Origin: Flavihumibacter fluminis
GTDB lineage: Bacteria; Bacteroidota; Bacteroidia; Chitinophagales; Chitinophagaceae
Length of the DNA stretch: 64,000 bases
NCBI RefSeq assembly: GCF_021491375.1
Contig: NZ_JAKEVY010000004.1
Location: forward strand, 434,001-498,000
Direction of reading: 5' to 3'
Shown here: in pieces, positions 38,713 through 62,577 of the stretch
How positions within the stretch are numbered: position 1 is the stretch's first letter
How the letters are laid out: every line of letters begins with the position of its first letter
The notes under the pieces: generated by a model
The model's input: only the letters and a program-made list of their open reading frames with translations
Database searches by the model: none
Told to the model about the DNA's origin: nothing
Position numbers and translations under genes: made by a program

Positions 38713-39987
38713 TTACAATCTCGCATCTGCTACTCCAAGTGGCAACACAGCTTTTACATCGTACAAGACACCATTCGACTTCAATTTCGAGCGCCAATCG
38801 GTTCCGTTCAGGAATTGCTTATGAGCTACCGCAAGGATAACACCATCGTAATCCTGACCCAATTCGGCAGCATCCGTAAAGATATCGTATCCATACTCAT
38901 GCACCACTTCCTCCTTGCTTGCCCATGGATCGTAAATGTCAACATCCACTCCCTGATCCCTTAAATGATAAACAATATCCACCACTTTGGTATTCCGGAT
39001 ATCCGGACAATTCTCTTTAAATGTCAGTCCCAAAATCAGCACTTTTCCTCCTACAACCGGTAACCCCCTGCGGTTTAAATGGCGTATCACCTGTAATACT
39101 ACATACTCTCCCATCCCATCATTGATTCTGCGACCCGCCAATATAATCTCCGGATGATACCCCGTTTCCTGTGCCTTTTGCGCCAAATAATAAGGATCCA
39201 CCCCAATGCAATGGCCACCTACCAATCCGGGTTGGAATGGCAGAAAATTCCACTTGGTACCCGCCGCTTCCAGTACCGCACGGGTATCAATATTCAACCG
39301 GTTGAAAATCTTGGCCAGCTCATTTACAAAGGCAATATTGATATCACGCTGGGCATTCTCTATTACCTTGGCAGCTTCCGCAACCCTGATGGATGCCGCC
39401 TGGAAGGTTCCTGCTGTAATGATGGAGCAATACAAATCATTTACTTCGGCCGCCACTTCCGGAGTAGAACCGGATGTGATCTTACGGATTTTAGTCAGTG
39501 TACGCTCTTTATCACCGGGGTTGATCCGCTCAGGAGAATAACCCGCAAAAAAATCTTTATTAAATGACAAACCGCTTACCTTCTCGAGAACGGGAACACA
39601 ATAGTCCTCCGTTACTCCCGGGTAAACGGTTGATTCATAAATAACGATATCGCCCTTCTTCAATACTTTCCCCACAGTTTCACTGGCTTTTTTCAATGGA
39701 GTCAGATCCGGCTGGTTATACCGATCCACCGGCGTAGGTACTGTAACAATAAAGCGGGTACAATCCTTGAGGTCATCCAGGTTGCAGGAAATTTGCAATT
39801 TCCCTTTTACCGCAGCCAGATCCTCATCGGATACTTCCAGGGTAAAATCCTTGCCTTCATTTAACTCGTTCACCCTTTTTTCGTTAATGTCGAAACCTAC
39901 GGTAGGGAATTTTTTGGCAAACTCCACAGCCAGCGGAAGGCCCACATAACCCAGGCCGATAACCGCAATTTTTCTGTCTGTATTCAT
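38713..39987 (-). CDS. UDP-HexNAc 6-dehydrogenase (TviB/WbpO-like)
   Basis: 424 residues. NAD-binding loop IAVIGLGYVGLPLAVEFAKK (residues 8-27), FIVTVPTPVD, the YESTVYPGVTED segment and the central FQPGLVGGHCIGVDPYYL with the catalytic cysteine. Oxidises C6 of a UDP-HexNAc to the uronic acid. The product UDP-GlcNAcA is also the substrate of the WbpB-like dehydrogenase in the same operon. First gene of the locus-1 operon; a 20-bp element shared with the locus-2 leader is 13 bp upstream of the ATG. Confidence 0.88.
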   Translation of the reverse strand: MNTDRKIAVIGLGYVGLPLAVEFAKKFPTVGFDINEKRVNELNEGKDFTLEVSDEDLAAVKGKLQISCNLDDLKDCTRFIVTVPTPVDRYNQPDLTPLKKASETVGKVLKKGDIVIYESTVYPGVTEDYCVPVLEKVSGLSFNKDFFAGYSPERINPGDKERTLTKIRKITSGSTPEVAAEVNDLYCSIITAGTFQAASIRVAEAAKVIENAQRDINIAFVNELAKIFNRLNIDTRAVLEAAGTKWNFLPFQPGLVGGHCIGVDPYYLAQKAQETGYHPEIILAGRRINDGMGEYVVLQVIRHLNRRGLPVVGGKVLILGLTFKENCPDIRNTKVVDIVYHLRDQGVDVDIYDPWASKEEVVHEYGYDIFTDAAELGQDYDGVILAVAHKQFLNGTDWRSKLKSNGVLYDVKAVLPLGVADARL

Positions 39988-40000
39988 GGTTGGTTTAAGT

Positions 40001-40025
40001 ATAGCTTCGCCTCCTCAGTCACATC
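40001..40025 (-). promoter_or_regulatory. 25-bp element shared with the upxY leader (24/25), copy at tviB
   Basis: Plus-strand ATAGCTTCGCCTCCTCAGTC (40001-40020) followed by ACATC. It recurs at 62483-62507, with C in place of A at position 21. Lies 13 bp upstream of the tviB ATG within the presumed 5' leader. Shared placement in both polysaccharide operon leaders suggests a regulatory RNA or DNA site. Confidence 0.6.
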
Positions 40026-40065
40026 AGGTGCAACCAGGGTAAAGTATAAACAATAGATTTTCAAT

Positions 40066-40083
40066 TGGCTACCAAGGTAGCCA
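40066..40083. promoter_or_regulatory. Perfect 18-bp palindrome TGGCTACCAAGGTAGCCA in the locus-1 leader
   Basis: 8-bp arms around AA. No T-run follows on either strand, so a binding site or RNA hairpin is more likely than a terminator. The half TGGCTACCA also occurs at 40903-40911, upstream of the response-regulator gene. Confidence 0.5.
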
Positions 40084-47378: not shown

Positions 47379-48701
47379 ATGAAACAAGCATCACAAAAAC
47401 TGGATCTGACTCAAAAGCTGGCAGTGCTTTGTATTTTTTCTGTCTTCCTGGATAAAGCTATTCGGGGAGCAGGGCTACCCTTTGACTTTTACTATTACTA
47501 TATCGCTTTTATTGCCTTTCTGGTATCTCTTGTTTATCAGAACCGGAAGATTTTTCTTCCTCCAAAATGGTTTAACCTGGGGTTTGGTGCAGTGGCCATC
47601 GCAAGTTTATTTGTAACAATTTACAACGGATTGCTGGGGTTTGAATACCTGAAACAACTCCTTGGCATTGTATTCACGAGTCTTGTATCCTATAATATTT
47701 TTGTGGTTTTCAGATTCGATATTCAGCGAATTTTCGAGTATTACCTGTTTTTTGCTTTCCTGGTTGCGCTTCATGCTGTGTTAGATAATCTCTTACACAT
47801 CGCTGGCATACACCTGACACCTTATTCAGTAGTTAGCCCTTTAATTATCCGGGAATATGGAATCATGGGGGAACCTTTCTACCTGGCAATGGCCATTACC
47901 CCAGCCCTTGCATATTACACCTGTTATTTTCAACGAACCTGGAAGCAGTTAAAATTCAGGTACCTGGTCTTACTGGCCTGTTATCTTGTCACCTATTCAT
48001 CCACTGCACTGATGGGTATTGGCCTGTCGGTGTTTTTTGCGCTTTATCTGAATAATTTTTTCAATGCCCGAAGCAACCGCTTTGTATTTGCCCCTTTAAT
48101 CATAGTTCCGATCGTATTATTGATTGTGAACCTGATTGATACCATCAGCTTGTTCAACAAACGGTACTATGATACTACTTCTCTCTTTTTGTCAAAAGAT
48201 ATTGATGTTAAAGAAGCAGGCAAATCCAACTCCAGTACGTTCGCGCTTTATTCCAATTTCATTATTGCGCGGGATTCTTTTCTTGAAAATCCACTATTCG
48301 GATCGGGTCTTGGATCGCACCCGCTCATTTATGAAAACACTTTTTTGAAATACTTTCCTCCGAACTACCTGAAAGGTTACGGAGCCCAGAACCAGCAGGA
48401 TGCCAATTCACGTTTCTTACGACTGTTATCTGAAACCGGACTTATGGGCACCGTATTGTTCTTGCTTTTCGTGATTATTTTCTTCGCGCCTAAATCAGCT
48501 ATCCGGTCTGCTGCAGGAAAAGAAATCGCAGCTATTAATTATGCCATCTTCATTTATATTCTGTTGGGGTTGATTCGAAATGGCAACTACATCAATGTTG
48601 GTTTCTTTTTCTTTTTCTTCATGTATTATATTTCCAACAGATTACTCGTAAACAATCCGGTACTACATATCAAGCAGCGCTTGAGTCCAGGTTTGGGGTG
48701 A
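47379..48701 (+). CDS. O-antigen ligase/polymerase-like membrane protein (Wzy of locus 2), opposite strand
   Basis: 440 residues, about twelve membrane helices. It has the Wzy_C/WaaL-like layout: long periplasmic loop near residues 255-350 containing DSFLENPLFGSGLGSHPLIYE, where the glycine- and histidine-rich GxGxH-like region is characteristic, then terminal helices. The only plus-strand gene within locus 2; 46 bp from the divergent asnB-type gene and overlapping the convergent GT gene by 39 bp. Polymerises repeat units flipped by Wzx (56142-57590). Confidence 0.82.
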   Translation: MKQASQKLDLTQKLAVLCIFSVFLDKAIRGAGLPFDFYYYYIAFIAFLVSLVYQNRKIFLPPKWFNLGFGAVAIASLFVTIYNGLLGFEYLKQLLGIVFTSLVSYNIFVVFRFDIQRIFEYYLFFAFLVALHAVLDNLLHIAGIHLTPYSVVSPLIIREYGIMGEPFYLAMAITPALAYYTCYFQRTWKQLKFRYLVLLACYLVTYSSTALMGIGLSVFFALYLNNFFNARSNRFVFAPLIIVPIVLLIVNLIDTISLFNKRYYDTTSLFLSKDIDVKEAGKSNSSTFALYSNFIIARDSFLENPLFGSGLGSHPLIYENTFLKYFPPNYLKGYGAQNQQDANSRFLRLLSETGLMGTVLFLLFVIIFFAPKSAIRSAAGKEIAAINYAIFIYILLGLIRNGNYINVGFFFFFFMYYISNRLLVNNPVLHIKQRLSPGLG

Positions 48702-49715
48702 AATACGTGCTGCCAGTTGCATACTGTTAGTTGCTTTATCCAGCAATGCCTCATCTGATTGTGCCGCTATTAAACGAAATGCTGAAAGGATATCGGATTG
48801 CTGATGAGAGGAAATCAGCCAGCCATTGCTTTCGTTCAGAAAGGCATCAGCTGCTCCCACCTGCGGGCTAAGCAGAAGTGGGAAACCTGCCGCAGCAAAC
48901 TCATGAACCGCTACACCCCAGGGTTCAAATTTACTTATCAATACAAACACACCGGCCTGCTCAATAACAGCATCCAATTGATCGGGCTGAATAAAACCAA
49001 GATGTTTGATTTTAGGATGTAGTATTCTGCTTTCAAAACCCGGGCCCGTTCCCACACACCAAAGCTCCCATTCGGAGGGCTCTAGCTCCTGCCATTTAAC
49101 AAAAGCATCCCAGAGTTCTGTGTAGGCTTTTTCAGGAATATAGCGGGCTACACATAAAAATACTTTTGGAAACCGGTTTGCTTTTAACGCTAATCCCCAC
49201 TTTCCTTTTTCCATAAATACCGGCAGATCGCAGGAATAAAAATGGTTCCGGATCTGCTCTTTCCGAAAACCAAGAAACCTTGCATACGCGGCCTGTCTTT
49301 CGCCTGGTAACCAAAGGTATCGAAAGCTCCTTTTTAAAACAGGGGCTCCGGTAAATTTCCATATCCACTGCTTCAGGTTTCCCAGGAGGTGATTATCAAA
49401 ACAAAGTACCGTAATGGCTTTTTTTCTCCAGGCATAGCAAAGCCGCACATAGTCCTTATTGATCCAGCCTGAGCATATTATGTGAGTAGGCTGAATTTCG
49501 TTGGAAAATCCTTTTAAGTCGGCGTAGGAGACAAACTCCTGTACCGGCCGAAAACTCCCAATAGCAGCAAAATCAAACTGAAACGGAGCTTCTTTATTGA
49601 TGGGAAAATGTACCACCGTTATCCTGGCATCCGGATCCAATTTCCTTAATGCCTTCAGGCAGGCGATTGTATATCCGGCAAGCTCCGTATATAGAAACAG
49701 ATAGGATCTTTTCAT
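48663..49715 (-). CDS. Glycosyltransferase, GT-B fold (family 4 type)
   Basis: 350 residues. FLCVARYIPEKAYTELWDAF opens the donor domain, LWCVGTGPGF and EPWGVAVHEFAAAGFPLLLS give the phosphate-binding and EAxxxG-type motifs. Its last 39 bp overlap the 3' end of the plus-strand polymerase. Follows the 873-residue secreted protein by a 4-bp overlap. Confidence 0.83.
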   Translation of the reverse strand: MKRSYLFLYTELAGYTIACLKALRKLDPDARITVVHFPINKEAPFQFDFAAIGSFRPVQEFVSYADLKGFSNEIQPTHIICSGWINKDYVRLCYAWRKKAITVLCFDNHLLGNLKQWIWKFTGAPVLKRSFRYLWLPGERQAAYARFLGFRKEQIRNHFYSCDLPVFMEKGKWGLALKANRFPKVFLCVARYIPEKAYTELWDAFVKWQELEPSEWELWCVGTGPGFESRILHPKIKHLGFIQPDQLDAVIEQAGVFVLISKFEPWGVAVHEFAAAGFPLLLSPQVGAADAFLNESNGWLISSHQQSDILSAFRLIAAQSDEALLDKATNSMQLAARISPQTWTQALLDM

Positions 49716-52333
49716 GGTTTCAGAACGATTTTATCCAGTTTCAATTCTCCACTCTTTACTTTGATTTCAAACTTTCCGCTACCCTCCAGCTTTAATTGTA
49801 TACTACCGATTGGCAAGCCTTTCCAACGCCCTGTTACATCACCCTGTTTCCATTCCAGTTCAACAGGAGCATTGTTCTTTTCAACTACTACCAATTCCAC
49901 AGCGCTGATTTTTTGCTGCTCCAATCCTTCAAAATCATAACTCAGTCGCGCCCCTGGTAATAGCCTGCGAAAACTGGTGAACCGCGAATAATCAAGCGGC
50001 TTATGCGCCTGGGTTATGATTTCTGCTGTGCCTTCTTCAACTTTCAATAGTTCTGCTTCAACACTCAATGCAGAAGACCAGAAAAAAGGATGTTCTACCT
50101 GATGCCAGGCATCGAGTTGATAAAATACGGGATTGTCTTTATCTAACCCTTTAAGTATGTAAAGACTTCCCTGTCTCGTAATCGGGAAACTGATTCTTTT
50201 TTGGTCCAACAGAATGCTGGTAGTTCTCTTATCAGGTACATTTCCCGCCTGGTTGCTATTCGGTTGGATACTTCCATATATCAGCCATTCATTCTTCCAT
50301 TTCCTCACTATTACCAGATCATTTGGGGCAGAAGCTTCAAACCGAAACAGCGAAGCAGCATTCAGTAATTCTCCCTGTTCAAAAAAATGCGGAGCATGGG
50401 TTCGGATAGCCTGTGCATAAGCGGGGATGGCAACCTGGTATGCGTAGCCTTTTGGATCATACGGACCGATTCCATTGGGCCATTTGCCACCCGGACCAGT
50501 AACATTAAAATATCCCACGTAAAAAAAATCAGCTCCCAGCATGACCATTGATTTTAAAAGTGCCAGCCATTGAGCGGGACGAATATTCTCCTTTTCCTCC
50601 TGCCAGCCAGCAGCAACAAAGGGTGAAAAATTTTTATCCCCTGCCGGGATTTCGGTTGCACGTCCTTTTGCAATCATGCCATACCCATTGTAAGGCCCAT
50701 TTGCGAGTTGCCAGTTGGAAGGAGTAAATGGATAAAAATCCGGCGTAGACCGGATACTGCCATCAGGCATACGATTTACTTTTTTACGGTATTCATAGGC
50801 CCCCCAAAAATCAGGCTGAACAGCAGATACCTGGAAGAAAGAAAAAATCGTTGAAGCTGGCAGGTCTTTTAAGACAATGGATCTGAATCTTTCTTCCATT
50901 TTAGTTTGAAATCTTCCGAAGTACTGTGTTCTGTTCAGTCCGCTGCGTTGAAAATCTTTCCATACTACAGGATCTTGCTTTAGCAGCGTTTCCCTGTAAG
51001 CAGTACCAAATACTTCTCCATTCTCGTTGATGAGCGCAGGAGCGCGTTTTAACCTACTGGTTAACTGAGACAGATAAAACCGAACAGTTTCTGCATCCTG
51101 CTCCATGATCTGCGGGTCCATCAAAGGAGAGAGTTGCTTCTTCCCGTTTACGAGAATGGGTTGCCCCTGTTTTTTTGACAGGTAATTTTTTGAAGCCAGC
51201 TGCTGGGAAAACACATACGGTTTATCTGAGTTATAACCCGCATGACGAGGCTGAATTTGAGCCTGCATCGATATTACAGAATATCCCCATCCCGGCTCTT
51301 GTTGTGCCAATTTAAGTAGTGCACCCGGAACAGTATTGGCATCACCATATATACGGCCGGCAGTTTGGGCATTCTCTCTTAACAAGGGTATATCCAGCCA
51401 ATAATTCCAGCGTTTATACATCTCCGTTTCTATTTCAACAGCAGCAGGGGCCGACCGCTCACTCAGATAATTAATATCCATCCAGGAAACATTGCGGGAA
51501 AGTTTATGCCCCCTGGCATATCGGGGAGAAGGAAACTGTTTTAACTGGTCCGGTAAAGAAACCGTATAACGCGGAAAACCAGGCGCGAACTGCATTGTAT
51601 CAAGCGCAAAACTTGATTTGAAATCAGTTGAACGTTTGCTATTAGTCCCATTCAATGATTGAGTCAGCTTTCGTATCGTAAAACTATCCAGGTATTGGTC
51701 GTACAAACTAACTTCATCCAGCTCAATACTCCCTTTAAATCCATCTGAAGCCTCCAATAAAGCGCTGTTGCCGGAAGGAATAGCAGCTTCCTTCGGATTA
51801 ATTAATACGCCATCCGCCCATATTTCTCTTCTTCCCAGGCGACTGCTGAAATTAAAAACAACCGTATGCCAGTTGCCATCATTATAATAGTCGTACCCAT
51901 AAGGTCCGCTACCGGTAAGATTGGCCCGGTAATAGGAACGGATATTTTTCCCTTCTTTAAGAGCACTGGTAGTGAAACTGAAATAAGGATAGTTGAAAGT
52001 GACTGAAAAATCTTGCCTGGGATAACTGATAAACTCGAAACTTTTTCCCCGAAAACTAATAACCAGTGCAAATGCATCGCCTTTTATTGCCTTGAGCATA
52101 TTCGTTGATACCAGGCAGTTAGCGCCCTCAATCCGGATAGCTTCCCTATTACTGTCAGTTACAGGTTCCATAGTACAGGCACCACCGGCAGAACGCAGCA
52201 CCAGCGATGCTGGCCGACCTTTCTTATAGTCTGCTTTACTAAAGTCAAATTGAGCTACAGGTTTTTTTACCTGCGCCAGACAAGAAATGCTTAACCCAAA
52301 AAGTACAACCAGAATAATTACGCGACCGACCAT
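49712..52333 (-). CDS. Large secreted protein with LamG-like N-terminal domain, function unassigned
   Basis: 873 residues. Signal peptide about 1-21 (VIILVVLFGLSISCLAQ). Residues about 25-225 resemble a concanavalin/LamG beta-sandwich (GNWHTVVFNFSSRLGRREIW, IELDEVSLYDQYLDSF). The middle 300-650 residues are rich in aromatic and acidic residues and look like a (beta/alpha)8 glycoside hydrolase (WMDINYL, GYFNVTGPGGKWPNGIGPYD), and the C-terminal 150 residues a beta-rich domain. No family could be named. Located among glycosyltransferases, it may process or anchor the locus-2 polymer. Confidence 0.55.
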   Translation of the reverse strand: MVGRVIILVVLFGLSISCLAQVKKPVAQFDFSKADYKKGRPASLVLRSAGGACTMEPVTDSNREAIRIEGANCLVSTNMLKAIKGDAFALVISFRGKSFEFISYPRQDFSVTFNYPYFSFTTSALKEGKNIRSYYRANLTGSGPYGYDYYNDGNWHTVVFNFSSRLGRREIWADGVLINPKEAAIPSGNSALLEASDGFKGSIELDEVSLYDQYLDSFTIRKLTQSLNGTNSKRSTDFKSSFALDTMQFAPGFPRYTVSLPDQLKQFPSPRYARGHKLSRNVSWMDINYLSERSAPAAVEIETEMYKRWNYWLDIPLLRENAQTAGRIYGDANTVPGALLKLAQQEPGWGYSVISMQAQIQPRHAGYNSDKPYVFSQQLASKNYLSKKQGQPILVNGKKQLSPLMDPQIMEQDAETVRFYLSQLTSRLKRAPALINENGEVFGTAYRETLLKQDPVVWKDFQRSGLNRTQYFGRFQTKMEERFRSIVLKDLPASTIFSFFQVSAVQPDFWGAYEYRKKVNRMPDGSIRSTPDFYPFTPSNWQLANGPYNGYGMIAKGRATEIPAGDKNFSPFVAAGWQEEKENIRPAQWLALLKSMVMLGADFFYVGYFNVTGPGGKWPNGIGPYDPKGYAYQVAIPAYAQAIRTHAPHFFEQGELLNAASLFRFEASAPNDLVIVRKWKNEWLIYGSIQPNSNQAGNVPDKRTTSILLDQKRISFPITRQGSLYILKGLDKDNPVFYQLDAWHQVEHPFFWSSALSVEAELLKVEEGTAEIITQAHKPLDYSRFTSFRRLLPGARLSYDFEGLEQQKISAVELVVVEKNNAPVELEWKQGDVTGRWKGLPIGSIQLKLEGSGKFEIKVKSGELKLDKIVLKP

Positions 52334-53196
52334 ATGGCTTTTACAAAATCTATCCAGCGAATGGATCCATTCCGTTTAAGAAATTTCGGAATGGAACTAA
52401 CTGAAAAAACGAATGCAATAAAAATGGAAGCCAGTCTTGACTGGTGCTTCTTTAAAAACAAAACAATATTTCTGCGTTTATAGAGAAATCGCCAATCTGT
52501 TTTTTCCAGAGCATCTAAACTTGCGCCTTCATGAACGATACTGTCTACTGGCAAAAAATAAATAGCCTGGTCGGATTGGTTGAGTTTAAAACATAGATCC
52601 TGCTCTTCATTGTACATAAAATATTGCTCATCAAACCCACCAACCTTCAAATAGGCAGATAGGCGTATCATAAAGCAAACACCATTCAGGCAATCAACCT
52701 GCACAGGTTTGTTGGCAACTGCGCTCTGATTTATAGCTGAATATTTTTTTCGGAAGGAAAAAACTCCCGATACCGTTGTAATGGGCAAAATGGTGTTCTG
52801 GACCGTTTTTCCGTCCTGCTCCAATACCCTGGGGCCTACCATGGCAGCGGCCGGATTGGAACTTAAAAATTCGGCTAACACCGTCAGATAGTCGCGGTTC
52901 AAAATTCCGGCATCACTATTAATGACATGAACCAGGGCTTCTTCCTCTTTTGCTGCTATATATTCTACTGCCCGGTTGACACCATACCCGAAGCCGCCGT
53001 TTTTTTGCTGGGGCAAGACTTGAACACCAGGCAGTTTAGTTAGTTCTTTCTGAAGTAATTCCAAAGCCGGTGCTTCAGAAAGGTTATCCACTACCAGAAT
53101 CGAATGCTCCCTGATAGTGCAATTCACCAGTTCAGATGCCAGTCGAATGACATCCTCCGATGTGTTATAATGAACAATAACTGAATAAAGTTTCAC
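52318..53196 (-). CDS. Glycosyltransferase family 2
   Basis: 292 residues, GTG start (53196). YSVIVHYNTSEDVIRLASEL at the N terminus, NGGFGYGVNRAV and the metal-binding HVINSDAGI; NGVCFMIR and FDEQYFMYNEEQDLCFKL are typical of rhamnosyltransferase-like GT2 enzymes. A C-terminal hydrophobic stretch may anchor it to the membrane. First of three consecutive GT2 genes counted from the downstream end. Confidence 0.86.
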   Translation of the reverse strand: MKLYSVIVHYNTSEDVIRLASELVNCTIREHSILVVDNLSEAPALELLQKELTKLPGVQVLPQQKNGGFGYGVNRAVEYIAAKEEEALVHVINSDAGILNRDYLTVLAEFLSSNPAAAMVGPRVLEQDGKTVQNTILPITTVSGVFSFRKKYSAINQSAVANKPVQVDCLNGVCFMIRLSAYLKVGGFDEQYFMYNEEQDLCFKLNQSDQAIYFLPVDSIVHEGASLDALEKTDWRFLYKRRNIVLFLKKHQSRLASIFIAFVFSVSSIPKFLKRNGSIRWIDFVKAIWSVA

Positions 53197-53200
53197 CTGA

Positions 53201-54133
53201 TTACACGTTAAAATGCCGGAAATTCCGGTTGAATAAAAAACCGGTAAAACGTGCCCATTTAATTTTTCGGGCTGGTTTCCGCAATAGCCAGTATTGCATG
53301 GCTACGATGCCTAAACAAAACGCAAATATTATTTTGTAAGCTAAATAATAGACATACCCCGTGTATTGTTTGAAAAAAAGTCCATAACCATACAAGGCAT
53401 CCAATTGCAACCACATTCTGACAGCCGGGTTGCCTGTTCCTGTACCACCTTTTGACTGATGATGAAATACGGCTGCTGATGGTTCTAATAAAATTTTCCG
53501 ACCATCCTTCCAGATTCGCCGACACAATTCGAGGTCAGAACCATAAATAAAAAAACGTTCATCCATCTGGTAATCGGAGCGAAACAGAAGCGCTGCTCCG
53601 GCCGGCTGCTCTAAGGGCTGTGCTTTTGAAAGATCGAGGTCCATGCAGGTATAGCTTCGATAGGAGCTAAACCGGGTCCACCATTTTGCCGGTACAAAAA
53701 ACTCAACCAGCAAGGCAGTAATGGAAGGAAAACGACGAATATAATTTTGAATGCCACCATCCGGATAATACAGGTTGGGAGCTATGGCACCAACCGATGG
53801 ATCCGACCCAAGAATATCAATCAGCTTTTTCCAGCTTTCATCCTTCAGAAAAGCATCCGGATTCAATAAAAAAATATAATCAGCTTCCGCAGCCCGAATG
53901 CCCTGATTGCAGGCAATGGTATAACCCAGATTCCTGTCGTTCAGTAGCAACTTGATTTTGTCAGCAAATGGCAGGAGAGATTCTCTGGTAGTATCGGTTG
54001 AAGCATTATCGATAACAATAATGTTGCCTTCCCCATATTGCAGTACGCTCTTAACACAATCAACTATTAAGTCAGCACAATTATAACTAACGATCACAAA
54101 ACTAACGGACGGTCTTTTTGTCTTTCCAGACAT
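53201..54133 (-). CDS. Glycosyltransferase family 2
   Basis: 310 residues. VSFVIVSYNCADLIVDCVKS opening, RNLGYTIACNQGI, metal-binding LLNPDAFLKDE, ERFFIYGSDLELCRRIWK. Rhamnosyltransferase-like GT2; C-terminal membrane helix (about 265-290). Overlaps the upstream GT2 gene by 32 bp, which is long for these operons. Confidence 0.86.
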   Translation of the reverse strand: MSGKTKRPSVSFVIVSYNCADLIVDCVKSVLQYGEGNIIVIDNASTDTTRESLLPFADKIKLLLNDRNLGYTIACNQGIRAAEADYIFLLNPDAFLKDESWKKLIDILGSDPSVGAIAPNLYYPDGGIQNYIRRFPSITALLVEFFVPAKWWTRFSSYRSYTCMDLDLSKAQPLEQPAGAALLFRSDYQMDERFFIYGSDLELCRRIWKDGRKILLEPSAAVFHHQSKGGTGTGNPAVRMWLQLDALYGYGLFFKQYTGYVYYLAYKIIFAFCLGIVAMQYWLLRKPARKIKWARFTGFLFNRNFRHFNV

Positions 54134-55052
54134 GCTCTAAGGCTTTAGTTGTTTGGTTTACCGGCGTGAAAAAGAACGAACGGGCTTTTTTTAGCAATAG
54201 TTTACTCCCATGGTAAAAAAATCCAAAACCCAGGGCAGAAAATGCTTCATAAATGTTTTTACGAAACTCCTTTGACTGCTTTGCCAGGATGCAATAATTC
54301 AACAGGGAGGTATAATATTCTTTATTGAGACCATGAACTGTTTTGCTTTTATGCAGAATCAAGGGTTTGTTTTTCAATAATACCCTGACCATTGTAGCAT
54401 TCATTTTGTACTGGTTACTGGTCATGCTTCCGAAATGCACACGAACTTTCGATAATACCCTGGGAAGACATCCGAATGTTTTATCAGATAGAGACAAGCG
54501 GAGCCAAAGATCCCAATCTTCGAGTTCGCGCAGGGATTCATCAAAACCACCCTGCTCAAGAACAATTTCTTTTGGAATCAAAATGGTATTAACGTGAATA
54601 AAATTTCCAAATAAAAGATGCCGGAGAATTTGCCCTTCATAAATCGGGAATTGGACCGGGAATGTTGCCTGAAAATTACCTGCTTCAAACCATTCAGAGT
54701 AGCTGTATACGATATCAGTTTCCGGATTGGAACGCAGGTAGTCCAGTTGAGCCGATAGTTTATCGGGTAAAATAACATCATCCGCATCCAGGAATACCAG
54801 GTACTTGCCTGAAGCATGGGCTATCCCGGTATTTCGGGCGCCGGAAAGTCCCCGATTGTCCTGCCGTATGCAATGGAGATTTTGAACATCGGGGTATTTA
54901 TTTTTAAGATACGGCGCTACCGGTTCAGCACTTCCGTCATCAACAACCAGTATTTCATGGGAAGTAAAAGTTGATTGTAAAACGGAATCGATGGCATCTG
55001 CTACAAACTGCAGACTATTGTAACAAGGGATAATAACTGAAACCTCAACCAT
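54102..55052 (-). CDS. Glycosyltransferase family 2
   Basis: 316 residues from the ATG at 55052 (the longer frame to 55094 extends into the previous gene). VEVSVIIPCYNSLQFVADAI, GLSGARNTGI and the metal-binding FLDADDVILPD; RELEDWDLWLRLSLSD follows. Inverting transferase in locus 2. One base gap after the previous gene. Confidence 0.87.
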   Translation of the reverse strand: MVEVSVIIPCYNSLQFVADAIDSVLQSTFTSHEILVVDDGSAEPVAPYLKNKYPDVQNLHCIRQDNRGLSGARNTGIAHASGKYLVFLDADDVILPDKLSAQLDYLRSNPETDIVYSYSEWFEAGNFQATFPVQFPIYEGQILRHLLFGNFIHVNTILIPKEIVLEQGGFDESLRELEDWDLWLRLSLSDKTFGCLPRVLSKVRVHFGSMTSNQYKMNATMVRVLLKNKPLILHKSKTVHGLNKEYYTSLLNYCILAKQSKEFRKNIYEAFSALGFGFFYHGSKLLLKKARSFFFTPVNQTTKALEHVWKDKKTVR

Positions 55053-55053
55053 T

Positions 55054-56145
55054 TCAGACTTGTTCAATAAATACTTTTGTTTTTCGGCCCACATTCACCC
55101 AATTGTATTCTTCCACAATCAATTGCCGGGCATTTTTTCTGAGCTCCTGTAATTTTTCGTAGTTGTTCTTGCAATAGTCAATTTTCTCAATAAGTTCATC
55201 CAGGTTATTATTAACCAGGAATCCTGTTTTGCCATTTTCAACAATCTCAGCCAATTGTCCCATATTATTGGCAAGCACAATCAATTCAAGGCTCAGGTAA
55301 TCAAAAAGTTTTAAAGAAGATCCGTAAAAGCCATATTTACACCAGTCGTAACTATTGTATAAACACAAACCAACATGACTAAGCTGCAACAATTCAGGCA
55401 AACGATCATGACTCACTTCCCCCATCGATAATACATTCGGTAAATATTCCTGGTTATAAACTGACCGGTTACTAAATACGAGAAACAGCAAGTCCGGATC
55501 CCGCTCGGCATAATGGGCAGCCAGTTTCATCAGCATATTGGTTCCCTGCCATGCGATGGCGCCATTTCCAGCCCAGCTCACCACAAATTTACCCCTGACA
55601 ATTTCGCGCAATGGGTTATTCCTGTTCGGCTCCATACGCCGGAATGTTTCAGGATCGGCAGCATTGGGGATAGTGGTTGTATTTTTTATTGAAAGGGCCG
55701 TTTGTGCATAATTTTCAAGAATGGAACTCACTCCGATGCATCCATCACAGAATTTTGCCAGCCATTTTCTTTTACGGTGCTGAAATCGAATCCATCGGCT
55801 CACTTTTTTCGGTACTGATTGCTGATAGTCAACCAGTCTTTCTTCAACTGGCGCGTTCAACTCCCATATCACCTTTATACGTCCAAATGAAACCAGTTTC
55901 AACAGGGTGAACCAATCATTCCACAACCAGGGATTTATTCTTATATAAATAACATCAATGGATCGTATGAACCGAATGAGTCCCCTAATTGATTTCGGGT
56001 GATCAATGGTAATGGAATTGGGGCCAAGCCCAATTGAATGCAGTTCTACAGACTGATCCTTTAATGATTGAAAAAGATGGTAGCCATGAACAGACGCGCT
56101 GCTGGAAAGCGGGTAGAATTTAGTATACACAATTCCGATTCTCAT
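55054..56145 (-). CDS. Glycosyltransferase family 4-like
   Basis: 363 residues. MRIGIVYTKFYPLSSSASVHGYHL opening (given in short: VYTKFYPLSSSASVHGYH), FVVSWAGNGAIAWQGTNMLM donor domain, SSLKLFDYLSLELIVLA in place of EAMACG. Retaining GT-B transferase. Overlaps the flippase gene by 4 bp. Confidence 0.82.
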   Translation of the reverse strand: MRIGIVYTKFYPLSSSASVHGYHLFQSLKDQSVELHSIGLGPNSITIDHPKSIRGLIRFIRSIDVIYIRINPWLWNDWFTLLKLVSFGRIKVIWELNAPVEERLVDYQQSVPKKVSRWIRFQHRKRKWLAKFCDGCIGVSSILENYAQTALSIKNTTTIPNAADPETFRRMEPNRNNPLREIVRGKFVVSWAGNGAIAWQGTNMLMKLAAHYAERDPDLLFLVFSNRSVYNQEYLPNVLSMGEVSHDRLPELLQLSHVGLCLYNSYDWCKYGFYGSSLKLFDYLSLELIVLANNMGQLAEIVENGKTGFLVNNNLDELIEKIDYCKNNYEKLQELRKNARQLIVEEYNWVNVGRKTKVFIEQV

Positions 56146-57590
56146 GCAGCTGATTTCTTTTTAAATACAGATAATAACTCTCTCACGATATCTTTTGAGA
56201 AAACCAATAAAGCAAGCGCATAAATACCGAAAAAAAGAACACCTGCCAATAGCAAGCGGGCAAATGGGTTCAGTTCACTCAACTGATGAATAACCAGCCA
56301 ACCCGATGTTGCTAAAGCCGAATAGAGTATTGATGGTAACAGCGGTTTCAAAAACTGAATTAGATTGATAGAAAGAATTGGGCCAACCAGCCAGTGAACA
56401 TGCGCCACAATTAAAAATAATCCAAAAATAAACTGAACCAGACAAACCCAGAACATCCCCCCAGGCATTGCCAGCAACAAGATTACCGGCGTAATACAGA
56501 GGATAGTTAAATTCCAGAAAAATGCCCATTTAGGTTTACCCGTTGCCAGCAACAGGCCACCCATAGGATTTACAATTGAGCGTATTAAAATATACAGGGA
56601 AAGTACTTGTACTACCGGAATTGCGGCAGTCCATTTGGCACCAAACAGCACCAATACGATATCACTGGCAAACACAGACAAAAATGCGTAAACAGGAAAA
56701 TTGACGAGAGACAGGTAGCGCAAGGTTTTCAGATACAGTGATCTCATGATAGGAACTTCTTCTTTGTATTTTGCTAACAAAGGAAAATTAACCTGTGTCA
56801 AAATTGGATTAATGACCATATAAGGTCGCATGATCAGGTTTTTACCCTGGTTGTATACGCCCAATAATTGAATACCCAAAAAATTTCCAACCAGTAATAC
56901 ATCCACCTGGCGGTTTATAAAATTGATCAGGTTATCCCCCATAACAAATAATCCGAATGAAAAGAAGGGACGGATTGACTTTATTGCAAAAAAGCCGGTA
57001 GGCCTGAAATAGCGACTTCCCATCCGGAAAATAAAAAAGCAGGAAATAACGATTCCTGCCATATGAAGTAGTACTAGTGAGTATACTCCCCAACCATTGT
57101 ATGCGGCCCAAATCCCAACCAAAAAGGACACAGATCTGGCCAGAATATCACGCTGAGCAATTCTTTTAAACTCTAACTGTTTTTGGATCAGGCTGAGATA
57201 AAGACTTTCAACCGGAATTAAAAGAAAGCCGGATGAAACAATCCGAATTACAGGCACCAGCCTGGGCTCTTCGTAGAAAGCAGCCACAACCGGTGCAATC
57301 ACCATTAATAGTGCAAAGAGGAAAATCCCAATAAAAAGACTCAGCCAAAATAAAGAAGACAATTGCTCCTGGCTGATATCTTTTTTTTGAATAATTACTG
57401 CAGAAAAACCAGCGTCCAGAAACAGCTGGGAAAAACCTATCACCACCAGGGCCAGTCCCATAATGCCAAAATCTGAAGTAGTCAGCATCCTGGCAAGGAT
57501 GGAGGTTTGAATAAGTTGAAAAAGAACGCCGGCGAAGGAAGCCAACCCCGTCCATTTAACCCCTTTAAACACTGTTTCAGATAAGCTCAC
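56142..57590 (-). CDS. Lipopolysaccharide-type flippase, Wzx (WzxC-like, locus 2)
   Basis: 482 residues, about fourteen helices; MOP superfamily. GTG start, sharing GTGA with the GT gene upstream. MSLSETVFKGVKWTGLASF and ARMLTTSDFGIMGLALVVIG are the hallmark opening of WzxC/TuaB-like flippases. Translocates the locus-2 repeat unit. Pairs with the inverted polymerase at 47379-48701. Confidence 0.88.
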   Translation of the reverse strand: MSLSETVFKGVKWTGLASFAGVLFQLIQTSILARMLTTSDFGIMGLALVVIGFSQLFLDAGFSAVIIQKKDISQEQLSSLFWLSLFIGIFLFALLMVIAPVVAAFYEEPRLVPVIRIVSSGFLLIPVESLYLSLIQKQLEFKRIAQRDILARSVSFLVGIWAAYNGWGVYSLVLLHMAGIVISCFFIFRMGSRYFRPTGFFAIKSIRPFFSFGLFVMGDNLINFINRQVDVLLVGNFLGIQLLGVYNQGKNLIMRPYMVINPILTQVNFPLLAKYKEEVPIMRSLYLKTLRYLSLVNFPVYAFLSVFASDIVLVLFGAKWTAAIPVVQVLSLYILIRSIVNPMGGLLLATGKPKWAFFWNLTILCITPVILLLAMPGGMFWVCLVQFIFGLFLIVAHVHWLVGPILSINLIQFLKPLLPSILYSALATSGWLVIHQLSELNPFARLLLAGVLFFGIYALALLVFSKDIVRELLSVFKKKSAA

Positions 57591-58723: not shown

Positions 58724-58744
58724 GGATATTACTTCTACTAATCA

Positions 58745-61105
58745 TTAACTTTTGGAACCAAATAAACGACTCCATATTCCTTTTTTACCTTTAGTTTCTT
58801 CATTAAAGTAAACTTCGATATTTTTTTTATGTCCATATCCATAACCATATCCATATCCATAACCTGAAGATTCTTTTACATCATTTAAAACGACTGAAAG
58901 ATTCGGCAGTTTTTTTTCTTGTTTCAACGCCTTGATATAATCCAGTGATTTTTTTACTGTATAACCCTGTCTTACAACGAAAATTGTTGCATCGGCAAAT
59001 TTTCCTAATGTAATACTGTCACTTACAACTCCAACCGGAGCTGAATCAATAATAATTAAATCAAAATTTACTTTAGCCCAGGAAAACAACTCTTCCATTG
59101 CTGGCAATAACATGAGTTCCGCCGGATTAGGGGGAATTAATCCACAAGGCAATATATAAAGATTGTCCAGCCCATCAACTTTCTTAACAAGGCTGCTTAA
59201 TTCACCATGACCTATCAGAAATGATGTAAGTCCTTTATGGGTACCCAAACCCAAATTTGATGCAATCTTAGGCTTTCGGATATCAAATTCCAGTATGAGC
59301 GTCTTGCGGCTCGCAAGTGCGAATGCAGCAGCAATATTTGTACTCAGAAAGGATTTGCCTTCACCACTCATGGAAGAAGTAACAAGCAATACCGGTTTTG
59401 TAGAACTTGATAGCATGTAGGACATATTGGTTCTTATAGTCCTGAACTGTTCGGTAATAAATGTTCGATTTTGCAAATTGACAAGTAACGGATTTGGATC
59501 ATCTGATCTTGACACTTCTCCAACAATAGGCACGTCCAAAACTTTCTCTATATCGCTCCTGAATTTAATTTTATCATTTAACAAATTGATAACTGCAATA
59601 ATAAAAACAGGCAGAAACAAACCTCCTAACAAAAATTTAATAAACACAGATTTAGGTAAGGGAGCAACCAGTTTTGCACGGATCGTTGCTTTTTCAAGAA
59701 TGCTTGCATTTGTAACAACAGCGGATGCCCCAATTGCCACTTCCTCCTTTTTGGATAAAAGGAACAGGTATAACTCCTCTTTAATTTTTTGCTGACGTTC
59801 GATATTTAATAACTGCCTTGCCTGCCCGGGTATACCAATCGCCTTCTTTTTCGTTGAAGTGAGTTCCCGAGCTATCTGAGAGCCAGTAATATCATATGAG
59901 CTACCAACGCTTTTTAACGCCTCCTGTATATCCCTTCTTAATTTTTCTATACTTGCATTAAGATCTGTCACGATTGGGTTCAATTCAGTAGTCGACTTCA
60001 ACAGGGTAGCTCTTTTAAGTTGAAGGTCGTTATATGCAGTAATCAATGGTCCAAGAGTAGGTTCGTCAACACCCAAATTTACCGGAACGGTTGAATTATT
60101 GTTTTCCGCTTTTGATATATAATCTTGTAACCATTGCAGAATCTGCTTTCGATTTTGCATCTCTGCATACCTGGTTTCAAGTTCCCTACTACTTGTAGCC
60201 AGGAAAGTAGAACTTTCAACAGGGGAGAGCGATTCCGATTTCTCCTGAAAACGCTGAATGGCCATTTCAACTCCCGATAGTTCAGACTTGAGAGAATCTA
60301 ATCTTTCATCTATAAACTCAATTGTATTTTTTGCAATTGAACTTTTATCTTCTACTGTCAACCGCTGATATTCTACCATTAATTCATTAACAAAATCCGA
60401 TGCTAGTAGCTTATTCATGGATTGAAATGAGATACTGATGATACTACCCATATCGGTAACTAATTTCACGTCAAGATGTGGCACCATGAGTTCTGCCGCC
60501 AAATCCAGTGGATAAATCTTTATTTTGAAATTCAATGTCTCAAAGTCGTTAATATGTTTATTAACAAGATGTAAACGAAAAACACCCTGATTTGGCAACG
60601 TAAATGTTTCCCCAAACTTATATTTTTCACCATTGCTCAATTGAAAACTAATTGTATCTAGTACAGTTATATCTAACACATAAACAACCGAATCTTTTTT
60701 CCCCAGAACCTCCATTTGCAGGGGATTATCTTCATACAGTTGCGCAGACCTAACTTTTCCTATTCCCTCATAAATAATATTCCAGTTTTTTCTTTCAATA
60801 ACACGCTGAATAAAGGAAGTGGATTTGAGGATTGCCATTTCATTGGTCAGGTTAGGTCCTGCATCATTGAGAAACAGCCGGTTAAATTTTTCATCTTCGG
60901 AATTGATAGGATTTTCATTACGGATTATCATTTGCCCATCAGCAGAATATACTTCTGGCGTGTAACGTAGATATATAAATGCAATAAGAATACTCAGTAA
61001 AACGGATAAAATAATCCAGGGTAGATACTTCAGATTTCGCTGCAATAACTCATACGGGGAAATATCCGATTTGTTGTTGTAAAATTGATCCGTATTAAAT
61101 TCCAT
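58745..61105 (-). CDS. Wzc-type polysaccharide co-polymerase and tyrosine autokinase (locus 2)
   Basis: 786 residues. Wzz domain with N-terminal helix (LPWIILSVLLSILIAFIYLR, about 29-48), coiled-coil to about 450, second helix near 500, kinase domain with Walker A SSMSGEGKSF (about residue 570), Walker A-prime ILEFDIRKPK and Walker B LIIIDSAPVG. Five Gly-Tyr repeats (about 748-757) near the C terminus. Paralogue of the locus-1 kinase with collinear domains, but a shorter Tyr tail. Length and order Wza-Wzc match the family. Confidence 0.9.
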   Translation of the reverse strand: MEFNTDQFYNNKSDISPYELLQRNLKYLPWIILSVLLSILIAFIYLRYTPEVYSADGQMIIRNENPINSEDEKFNRLFLNDAGPNLTNEMAILKSTSFIQRVIERKNWNIIYEGIGKVRSAQLYEDNPLQMEVLGKKDSVVYVLDITVLDTISFQLSNGEKYKFGETFTLPNQGVFRLHLVNKHINDFETLNFKIKIYPLDLAAELMVPHLDVKLVTDMGSIISISFQSMNKLLASDFVNELMVEYQRLTVEDKSSIAKNTIEFIDERLDSLKSELSGVEMAIQRFQEKSESLSPVESSTFLATSSRELETRYAEMQNRKQILQWLQDYISKAENNNSTVPVNLGVDEPTLGPLITAYNDLQLKRATLLKSTTELNPIVTDLNASIEKLRRDIQEALKSVGSSYDITGSQIARELTSTKKKAIGIPGQARQLLNIERQQKIKEELYLFLLSKKEEVAIGASAVVTNASILEKATIRAKLVAPLPKSVFIKFLLGGLFLPVFIIAVINLLNDKIKFRSDIEKVLDVPIVGEVSRSDDPNPLLVNLQNRTFITEQFRTIRTNMSYMLSSSTKPVLLVTSSMSGEGKSFLSTNIAAAFALASRKTLILEFDIRKPKIASNLGLGTHKGLTSFLIGHGELSSLVKKVDGLDNLYILPCGLIPPNPAELMLLPAMEELFSWAKVNFDLIIIDSAPVGVVSDSITLGKFADATIFVVRQGYTVKKSLDYIKALKQEKKLPNLSVVLNDVKESSGYGYGYGYGYGHKKNIEVYFNEETKGKKGIWSRLFGSKS
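58835..58864 (-). repeat. In-frame 6-bp repeat encoding five Gly-Tyr units
   Basis: Five consecutive GGN-TAT codon pairs on the minus strand, with GGA-CAT next. Same design as the nine-unit tract in the other kinase (34626-34679), with lower copy number. Confidence 0.9.
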
Positions 61106-61113
61106 CTTACTTA

Positions 61114-61914
61114 TTAACGTCTGATGATAGATATTATTAATACAAGCACAGACACGATACTACTTCCGATAGTCACATTACGCAATAAAACCTGTTCATT
61201 ACCGGTCGGCTTTCTTCTGGTAGGTTCAACATATACCAGGTCATTTGAAGCCAGATAGAAAAAATCTGAACTGTAAACATCCGGACTTCTAAGATCAAGT
61301 CTTTTTGATACCCTTTTACCATCAATTTCTCTAACCACAAGAATATTATCCCTTCTGCTAAAATTGGTAAAATCACCTGCGAATCCAATTGCATCAAACA
61401 CCGATACTTTTACTCCGGGCATGTCAATTACACCCGGACGGGTAACTTCCCCCAAAACAGTAATTCGTGCATTGGCAAATCGAACAATTACATACGGGTT
61501 AAGCAGATATAAACTGAGTTGCTTTTGGAGTTCATCAGCTAATCCCTGACAGGTCAGCCCCGCCGATTTTATCTGACCAATTTTATGAATTAGTATCTCC
61601 CCATTATTATCAACAAAATACCCTCTTCCCATTGCAGAAATCTGAGAACCATTTGCCATTGTAGCACTTGTACTCCCACCTGATTGTGCCTGATTGAATT
61701 GTTCTGTAGCTTCTTTGTTGTCACTATAAATCAAAATCGTTAAGAGGTCTCCCTTTTTTATTACCGGATTCGGGATTTTTAAACTTAACTCTTCCGCCGT
61801 ATCAATTCCCTGCAGTATAATTCGTTGCTGGTGATTTTTCTGCGAGGCACCACAAGCAATTAACAAAAAAAGTGCAGTAACCATTGCTGCACCCTGGTAT
61901 AGCATTCTCAGCAT
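61114..61914 (-). CDS. Wza-type outer-membrane polysaccharide export lipoprotein (locus 2)
   Basis: 266 residues. Lipobox LIAC with Cys21. Poly_export/SLBB: GYFVDNNGEILIHKIGQIKS, ITVLGEVTRPGVIDMPG, SSDFFYLASNDLVYVEPTRR. C-terminal helix NVTIGSSIVSVLVLIISII. Directly upstream of wzc (8 bp) and 34 bp after the UpxY-like gene. Confidence 0.9.
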   Translation of the reverse strand: MLRMLYQGAAMVTALFLLIACGASQKNHQQRIILQGIDTAEELSLKIPNPVIKKGDLLTILIYSDNKEATEQFNQAQSGGSTSATMANGSQISAMGRGYFVDNNGEILIHKIGQIKSAGLTCQGLADELQKQLSLYLLNPYVIVRFANARITVLGEVTRPGVIDMPGVKVSVFDAIGFAGDFTNFSRRDNILVVREIDGKRVSKRLDLRSPDVYSSDFFYLASNDLVYVEPTRRKPTGNEQVLLRNVTIGSSIVSVLVLIISIIRR

Positions 61915-61948
61915 GTATAGTATTGGTTAAGTATCAAAATTGTCTGCA

Positions 61949-62449
61949 TCACTTTACAACCACCTTCTCTTTATCCAGCGTAGCTACCAGCTTACAGCCC
62001 AGGCTCTCAATCAGCACTTCCACGCGTTTTTTATCAGCCGACAGAATTCGCCCCTGCTGCTCCATGAATACCCCGGAAGTGATGATCACCTGGTCACCCG
62101 GTTTCGGTTCCGGCAGTTGCTCCACCTCCACATCTTCGAACTCATTCAGGAAACGTTTGATCCGCTCGATTTCAATTTCTTTTACCTGAGCCGGCTTTCC
62201 CAGCCAGTAAACAAAATTTACCACACCGTCAACAAAACGCACATCTGCTCTGTCTTCGTCTGTTACCCGCACAAAAACATAACTTTTGAACAAGGGCTCC
62301 TCCACTACTTTATACCGATCGCTCCATTTTTTACGGACCTTGTTCAACGGGCAATACGACTGCCACCCCTTCTGAAGAAGCAATTCATGCACCTTCTTCT
62401 CCCAGCGCGGTTTAGTGTAAAGTGCGTACCAGTTTTTCTGCTTGGTCAT
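61949..62449 (-). CDS. UpxY/NusG-like transcription antiterminator
   Basis: 166 residues from the ATG at 62449; a TTG at 62467 would add six residues. N-terminal NGN domain: WYALYTKPRWEKKVHELL (residues about 6-23), SYCPLNKVRKKWSDRYKVVE and PLFKSYVFVR. A C-terminal KOW-like domain has PKPGDQVIITSGVFMEQQGR. UpxY-type proteins in Bacteroides bind RNA polymerase and let it read long capsule operons. Its leader carries an ops-like octamer and a terminator-like hairpin, so it probably acts on the operon that follows. Confidence 0.88.
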   Translation of the reverse strand: MTKQKNWYALYTKPRWEKKVHELLLQKGWQSYCPLNKVRKKWSDRYKVVEEPLFKSYVFVRVTDEDRADVRFVDGVVNFVYWLGKPAQVKEIEIERIKRFLNEFEDVEVEQLPEPKPGDQVIITSGVFMEQQGRILSADKKRVEVLIESLGCKLVATLDKEKVVVK

Positions 62450-62482
62450 AGGTATCAGGTTTTTCAACCCTGCAATTTAGGC

Positions 62483-62507
62483 ATAGCTTCGCCTCCTCAG
62501 TCCCATC
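62483..62507 (-). promoter_or_regulatory. 25-bp element shared with the tviB leader (24/25), copy at upxY
   Basis: ATAGCTTCGCCTCCTCAGTC at 62483-62502 is identical to 40001-40020. Lies 33 bp upstream of the upxY ATG, after the hairpin at 62534-62577. Overlaps an inverted repeat CAGTC/GACTG (62499-62514). Confidence 0.6.
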
Positions 62508-62533
62508 GGACTGAAATTTTCCTTACCCACATG

Positions 62534-62577
62534 CAATAAAAAAGGCAAGGGAGCCCATATTTCGACCTCCTTGCCTT
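62534..62577 (-). terminator. Terminator-like hairpin in the upxY leader
   Basis: Minus-strand arms AAGGCAAGG and CCTTGCCTT (62577-62569 and 62550-62542) enclose an 18-nt loop and are followed by a T-rich run. It may simply end the WbpD transcript, or, if the -7 box at 62688 is used, attenuate upxY transcription. Confidence 0.65.

Follow-up and report, generated by a model that had tools for sequence, protein, structure and literature searches.

Among the described systems closest to the locus analyzed here, RfaH, a NusG paralog, acts in trans on long surface-glycan operons through the leader element ops (GGCGGTAGCGTG). In Bacteroides, control of capsules by UpxY and UpxZ was reportedly described by Chatzidaki-Livanis in 2009, and in 2024 Saba is said to have found that UpxY reads the non-template DNA and the upstream duplex of a paused RNA polymerase (RNAP), with help from nascent RNA hairpins. 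As far as the available portions of two other reports go, Bacteroides UpxY prevents termination in the leaders upstream of upxY (PMC7819879), and the UpxYs reside in their own loci, the others being subject to interference by UpxZ (PMC7593976). RfaH, according to the accessible text of a further study, needs an ops hairpin with loop G4-A7 and a C3:G8 pair and contacts ops through residues H20, R23, and Q24 (PMC5995543). A third NusG paralog, LoaP, promotes readthrough at dfn in Bacillus with a leader hairpin of the UNCG type, for which the available part of the report describes no discernible pause (PMC12691694).

The 64-kb stretch of Flavihumibacter DNA that we analyzed (the window) carries two copies of a 20-mer that in the operon sense (minus strand) reads TGKGACTGAGGWGGCGAAGCYNTG, also given as GACTGAGGAGGCGAAGCTAT (Table 1). 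A sequence search bore out the original prediction that identical 20-mers stand on the same strand at 40001-40020 and 62483-62502, that agreement extends to 24 of 25 bases once the next five positions are counted, and that the copies are equivalently placed, ending 13 nt (tviB-like operon) and 33 nt (upxY) before the ATG on the sense strand. No third match was found in the 64 kb searched even at three mismatches, and the chance expectation for the 20-mer, from 100 dinucleotide shuffles of the window, was a mean of 0.01 matches. The flanks had been described as unrelated; their sequences do differ, but in both a 5′ arm can base-pair with the GACTGAG that the copies share, which gives the two leaders a predicted hairpin in common. 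From comparison of the copies across genomes, we regard the element as probably an ops-like pause and recruitment site for UpxY, i.e., the Bacteroidota counterpart of ops.

Table 1. Features of the two leaders and operons in the window, and exact copies of the element in the source genome
Feature	Position	Strand	Context or basis
Element copy 1, TGTGACTGAGGAGGCGAAGCTAT	40001..40023	-	Leader of tviB-like operon
Ops-like 12-nt pause/recognition segment GGCGAAGCTATA, copy 1	40000..40011	-	Sequence; putative function
GCGAAGC, mini-hairpin sequence (GNA loop), copy 1	40004..40010	-	Sequence
Predicted nascent-RNA hairpin CCTGGTTGC...GTGACTGAGG, copy 1	40013..40038	-	Folding
Element copy 2, TGGGACTGAGGAGGCGAAGCTAT	62483..62505	-	upxY leader
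Ops-like 12-nt segment GGCGAAGCTATG, copy 2	62482..62493	-	Sequence; putative function
GCGAAGC mini-hairpin sequence, copy 2	62486..62492	-	Sequence
Predicted nascent-RNA hairpin TTCAGTCC-GATG-GGACTGAG, copy 2	62496..62515	-	Folding
UDP-glucose/GDP-mannose dehydrogenase (tviB-like), first gene of operon 1	38713..39987	-	Pfam
upxY, with NGN and KOW domains	61949..62449	-	Pfam, NCBIfam
Wza-type polysaccharide export gene, after upxY	61114..61914	-	Pfam PF02563
Wzc-type chain-length/kinase gene	58745..61105	-	Pfam: Wzz slightly below cut-off, CbiA above
Exact copies 1 and 2	The two window copies	-	tviB-like operon, upxY operon
Exact copy	C21:659797		First ORF without Pfam match, a flippase by its look, then glycosyltransferase
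Exact copy	C21:877263		Wzz/GNVR kinase, then Polysacc_synt flippase
Exact copy	C32:104774		Weak Wzz/GNVR match, then MurJ-type flippase

By eye, a GC-rich inverted repeat followed by TTTTTTATT at 62535-62575 (minus strand) resembles an intrinsic terminator; it falls in the gap separating the upxY element from the gene before it and was missed by a scan limited to loops of 3 to 8. Also by eye, an inverted repeat, GGCTACC-TT-GGTAGCC, lies upstream of the tviB element at 40066-40083 (minus strand), with no T run behind it. An Rfam scan of the window gave no matches, and a scan for E. coli-type promoters, a model ill-suited to this phylum, found about as many sites as in shuffles.

Each copy is followed by a run of same-strand open reading frames (ORFs), which spans about 28 kb (11951-39987) for the tviB-like operon and about 14 kb (48663-62449) for upxY. 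Wza- and Wzc-type genes are present in both operons (Pfam/NCBIfam), in operon 1 after the tviB-like gene and an epimerase gene (Pfam). The product of upxY belongs to the UpxY family by its score against NF033644 (129.3 bits; cut-off, 100) and has domains PF02357 (NGN) and PF00467 (KOW). It aligns with RfaH structures (E = 3e-9) and falls below the cut-offs of both the RfaH model TIGR01955 (77.6 bits; cut-off, 144.5) and the LoaP model NF033641 (54.2 bits; cut-off, 125). In its AlphaFold model (pLDDT 90.7), the KOW part consists of five strands (beta-type); an RfaH-like helical autoinhibited form is not predicted, although the model cannot exclude one. The locus resembles the Bacteroides systems in that the same protein family (NF033644) is concerned and UpxY heads a polysaccharide operon. 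Instead of one UpxY per capsule locus, however, a single UpxY was found in the source genome, which has two NusG-domain genes, for housekeeping NusG and this UpxY, and one UpxY with one site sequence would serve several operons, RfaH fashion. A search for UpxZ (PF06603) gave no match here, nor did the control genomes.

A relaxed pattern, TGKGANTNANNNGGCGNAGCNNT, matched 14 times in the source genome, with no match for the reversed control. Five of these copies, exact matches to TGKGACTGAGGWGGCGAAGC, all head glycan operons (Table 1), as shown by the whole-genome search that the original prediction had called for. The other nine are variants, near which no glycan gene was noticed (ORFs viewed by eye, few of them run through Pfam). 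Many copies unrelated to glycan operons, which would have spoken against the prediction, were found among the variants only and not among the exact copies. One UpxY out of two NusG-domain genes, facing five exact copies at glycan operons, is the architecture that a site acting in trans would need.

The element is widespread in the family (188 of 394 genomes at up to two mismatches; reversed control in 3), and a looser pattern with one mismatch was found in 66 of 392 genomes of the phylum (control in 1). The exact pattern occurred in at least 115 stretches from a collection of 84,980 species genomes of bacteria and archaea, against about 2 expected by chance; 112 of the 115 listed are from what we take to be Bacteroidota (one Balneolaceae counted in), and 3 came without a group name. 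Comparison of leaders in relatives, also proposed at the outset, showed the element recurring before glycan operons throughout the phylum. Of the 116 exact matches in the stretches listed, 110 are followed by an ORF of at least 80 amino acids in the sequence examined, and for 106 of these the first such ORF shares the strand of the element. Pfam assigned the first same-strand genes among these listed matches to NusG (42/106), Poly_export (14/106), and UDP-dehydrogenase (5/106), and 21 of 87 second genes to Poly_export (87 of 88 scanned, one very long gene being omitted).

Placement near the starts of glycan operons would also suit a double-strand operator or promoter-linked element for an ordinary exopolysaccharide transcription factor, since 20-mers are bound by many regulators. 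Such an operator is nonetheless quite improbable, given the strict orientation (106 of 110 among the matches listed), the lack of a palindrome by eye, the covariation with a variable upstream partner described below, and the link to UpxY. The latter was seen at two levels. Of 148 matches at up to two mismatches (loci L075 to L219), 64 had the start of a UpxY gene within 400 nt downstream and 2 had one farther downstream; in 16, UpxY lay solely upstream or on the other strand, and in 66 it was missing from the sequence examined around the match, 7 of these having less than 600 nt downstream. Among 122 sampled genomes of the family, representing 100 genera, 61 of the 100 whose UpxY exceeded the cut-off also carried the element at up to two mismatches, compared with 2 of the 22 in which no UpxY did so (odds ratio, 15.6; Fisher p = 8e-6). 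Conversely, 39 of the 100 UpxY genomes lacked the element at up to two mismatches, and of 30 UpxY loci examined, 17 had no recognizable copy in the sequence examined and 13 had a positively scoring one, some with changed letters, e.g., TGTGAGTGACATGGCGAAGC; UpxY therefore does not always use the element. The predicted common recruitment site for UpxY is thus partly supported, being favored by the glycan leaders across the phylum, the co-occurrence with UpxY, and the single UpxY alongside five exact glycan copies, whereas the nine variant copies without a noticed glycan gene count against it.

Some copies stand before other kinds of genes. One genome (G476; L302 to L304) has 29 relaxed copies of a variant element before diverse genes, reading TGGGACTYACCAGGCGAAGCTCT in most of the matches listed and accompanied by a conserved upstream stretch. 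At two loci (L308 and L311), the element precedes a short gene whose product starts in a similar way, SxTRxKLLLxxF (by eye), and is perhaps a winged-helix regulator tied to glycan loci. At another (L315; G603:C61), it lies about 45 nt before a phage-tail-sheath-type gene that heads a contractile-injection-like operon.

Conservation within the element was assessed from mismatch counts, which supersede an earlier position table in which the core was conserved partly by construction, sites having been kept only with GGCGAAGC or AGCGAAGC. The 74 one-mismatch places among the matches listed fell in the arm TGKGASTGA (48), at the first G of GGCGAAGC (11), at the fourth letter, i.e., the loop base, of GCGAAGC (9), and at the final T (5), with a single one at the six non-loop positions of GCGAAGC. 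All nine loop-base changes were from A to G; the bias toward the loop base, counted by genome, was 8/9 (p = 1e-6; matches listed). Likewise, among the family matches listed, with two mismatches allowed, the loop base accounted for 9 of 12 departures in GCGAAGC (to G in 8 and to T in 1) and other positions for 3, and genome G100 had a G loop in six of its seven copies. What is conserved is the sequence GCGNAGC, with a variable loop base. GCGAAGC is an ultrastable DNA mini-hairpin, of a class that, in the accessible text of the source, takes in every GNA or GNNA loop closed by two G-C pairs (PMC4686876).

In the exact matches listed, the letters after GCGAAGC are Y (113/116), N, T (112/116), and G (77/116). 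With that T taken as -1, the element is as long as ops (12 nt) and carries the signature GG(-11,-10)...T(-1)G(+1), the T(-1) and G(+1) positions being unselected by the search and the GG being part of the search pattern. The register of the 12-nt segment was taken from comparison of the element copies; in it, the tviB copy has A instead of G at +1. The 12-nt element GGCGAAGCYNTG here, like ops, starts with GG (GGCG), ends with TG, and has the same pause register, and both share the form GC-G(N)A-GC, in which the ops loop GGTA would be of the GNNA type and the GAA loop here is GNA. According to the available portion of the report (PMC5995543), C3:G8 is believed to be the sole pair that ops forms within the transcription complex, whereas here two G-C pairs are possible. 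Unlike in ops, there is no flipped-out T, such as the T6 bound in the NGN pocket of RfaH, in the loop, which is mostly GAA and sometimes GGA and has a T-free consensus; the element includes a covarying upstream hairpin; and the protein is UpxY, not RfaH. In our own reading of the alignment with RfaH structures, the ops-contact residues H20, R23, and Q24 correspond to L, Q, and K in UpxY, whose mode of reading must therefore differ from that of RfaH.

Folding predicted a hairpin of -8.4 kcal/mol in the tviB leader (z = -2.24; 5 of 200 shuffles fold as well) and of -12.4 kcal/mol in the upxY leader (z = -4.41; 0 of 200 as good). The upstream flanks of the element differ but tend to include an arm that is complementary to GACTGAG. 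The arms covary, as in the pairs GATTGAG/CTTAATC (L210) and GTAACTGAG/CTTAGTTAC (L219). The stronger test was folding with permuted arms. In 211 of 244 copies, those left once flanks 70% alike were removed (kinship below that filter is uncorrected), the fold with the own arm averaged -8.69 kcal/mol versus -7.61 (SD, 0.11) when arms were permuted among sites, the own-arm value being reached in 0 of 20,000 permutations. The 71 sites with an arm other than GACTGAG gave -8.87 kcal/mol with their own and -6.96 with permuted arms (0/20,000), and arm stabilization was -5.67 versus -3.68 (SD, 0.13) with shuffled flanks and -3.54 with a reversed arm. An ungapped stem test was less clear: at 165 sites, 23% reached p = 0.05 against shuffles, and with swapped flanks the own score was 13.45 versus 11.48 (mean rank, 0.32 for 30 variant arms), a tendency only. 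A count of at least four pairs in 197 of 211 sites had no shuffle control and hence was not used as evidence.

The hairpin is not strict. Of 197 sites, 70 had its 3′-most paired base no further along than the final G of GACTGAG, and in 127 that base lay as many as four positions past this G, such that the distance from hairpin to pause is not fixed. Eight stems in G476 comprised three perfect ones, one with a G-U pair, and four with one mismatch, indicating that the arms do not covary cleanly in that genome. The predicted loops in the window, CCUGA and GAUG, are not UNCG; in place of the LoaP-type hairpin of dfn, with which it shares the combination of a NusG paralog and a leader hairpin, the element has variable loops and a pause-like sequence behind them.

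A covarying hairpin is most simply read as RNA with G-U pairs, and LoaP binds the RNA hairpin of its target leader, as the accessible text states (PMC12691694). The element might accordingly be an RNA signal like that of LoaP-dfn, bound as RNA by UpxY or another protein, with pausing secondary. We consider this unlikely, because the strictest part of the element lies outside the hairpin, in the pause/ops register, as judged from 48 of 74 mismatches in the arm versus 1 of 74 at the non-loop positions of GCGAAGC among the matches listed, and because neither the loop nor the 5′ arm of the hairpin shows sequence conservation. A translation signal was also considered, given that GAGGAGG resembles a Shine-Dalgarno sequence (AGGAGG) and that an ATG in the upxY leader opens a 9-codon frame over the element. 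The distance to the first gene is very variable, however, the W position breaks AGGAGG, and an A precedes TG in only 119 of 211 sites, 68 of which read ATGTGA, a start followed by an immediate stop; the Shine-Dalgarno and leader-peptide readings were rejected on these grounds as highly improbable.

In the mechanism that we propose for an ops-like recruitment site, RNAP would transcribe the leader and the RNA ending in GACTGAG would pair with the locus-specific upstream arm, forming a hairpin at the RNA exit; comparative evidence backs the arm pairing, and we infer its RNA nature. RNAP would then pause about 13 nt further on, at the last T of GGCGAAGCYNTG, where the consensus-pause signature is found. 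The exposed non-template strand would fold at GCGAAGC, and UpxY would read this mini-hairpin while binding the paused complex, as the conservation of GCGNAGC together with RfaH-ops suggests. UpxY would remain on RNAP and suppress termination along the long glycan operons, and the presence of one UpxY with several site copies points to its acting in trans on several operons plus its own. Binding, pausing, and antitermination at the element are all what we infer from these patterns. Points against the mechanism are the UpxY genomes without the element, the copies without UpxY, the variants at non-glycan arrays, the A(+1) of the tviB copy, the unlike UpxY residues at the positions of the RfaH contacts, and the non-strict hairpin.

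The non-glycan arrays are integron-like. A profile search (150 of 656 candidates scored) found at least 51 attC-like repeats in the source genome, 50 of them in eight contig regions; the profile seeds came from L221 and L046, which match by construction. By this sequence model, the repeats lie between same-strand small genes, as in an attC-like array. In four regions (C39, C2, C11, and C37), a sense element lies 0.9 to 2.2 kb before the first repeat; these regions have their 5′ end inside the contig, next to a head that can be seen, with C37 having one repeat before the contig end. The other four start less than 5 kb from a contig end and hence are uninformative on heads. Four of the nine variant copies thus sit at array heads, while none of the remaining five variants (C1:22460, C2:358, C11:892055, C37:262613, and C37:294499) is the closest head to any repeat region listed, C1:22460 being near a contig end and C2:358 preceding another copy.

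In C39, a 426-amino-acid recombinase related to integron integrases sits between the element and the repeats. The L221 recombinase scored below the integron-integrase cut-offs (TIGR02249, 187.1 of 265 bits; NF040815, 215.4 of 220). Arrays with attC-like repeats headed by a variant element were seen at L221 (source genome C39:9000-18500), L230, L226, L331, L332, and L328, L226 being too short for the repeat search itself; an integrase-like recombinase follows the element at L221 and L226 (Pfam) and, by its start sequence, at L230. Like chromosomal integron arrays, these have attC-like repeats mostly 700 to 1,000 bp apart in one orientation and, in some, an integrase-like recombinase near the head; unlike in those arrays, the recombinase is under the integron-integrase cut-off. 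Copies heading such arrays, like the 29 relaxed copies in G476, could be taken for a dispersed repeat (REP/MITE-like) or a recombination site lying near glycan loci by chance, with attI as its form in the arrays. Most flanks are unlike, however (211 of 244 pass the 70% filter), orientation relative to genes is fixed, and the gene order in C39, with the integrase-like gene between the element and the first attC-like site, is not the attI arrangement. Both the repeat and the attI readings were rejected for these reasons, and we give them the least credence of all.

Two or more attC-like repeats were found downstream in 19 of 128 element contexts, which is not a frequency, since the contexts were chosen for holding the element and L036 was counted twice. 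The repeats were unidirectional in 18 of the 19, the exception (L050) having a second, opposite-facing element. Sites were also divided into classes I and II by the base after GCGAAGC, a post hoc and imperfect split; the class I base occurred in 8 of the 19 contexts. A first structure-based attC finder gave a density of 0.016 per kb at 25 class II sites, against 0.021 in shuffles, and of 0.012 at class I sites, against 0.012. With a second, 23 class II sites had 0.35 per 7 kb, against 0.02 in shuffles, and 84 class I sites had 0.62, against 0.20. Taken together, attC-like repeats were not clearly seen with the two structure-based finders.

A tentative extension of the UpxY recruitment site, which we hold to be possible, is that in Flavihumibacter and relatives a single NusG paralog would constitute a genome-wide antitermination regulon comprising several surface-polysaccharide operons plus integron-like arrays, in which the ops-like leader would carry RNAP across many cassettes that lack promoters and have untranslated gaps. 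In relatives, contractile injection operons may be served by this signal as well (L315). In the literature searched, including links between antitermination and integrons, no ops-like leader for a cassette array was found, nor, within the papers which that search covered, was such a shared element. Compared with the described families, what appears different here is a site sequence common across a phylum and one UpxY for several operons.

The data suggest that a single class of ultrastable DNA mini-hairpin in a paused polymerase is read by two kinds of NusG paralog, with GNNA loops for RfaH and GNA loops for UpxY. The element offers a definite sequence, usable in searches, as a candidate recruitment site for UpxY-type antiterminators throughout the phylum, the published examples that we examined being locus-specific. 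It would allow regulons to be predicted from sequence alone, and it makes trans action of UpxY open to simple reporter tests. The array copies would, in addition, tie transcription antitermination to integron expression and, if the proposed regulon is true, would explain how distal cassettes get expressed.
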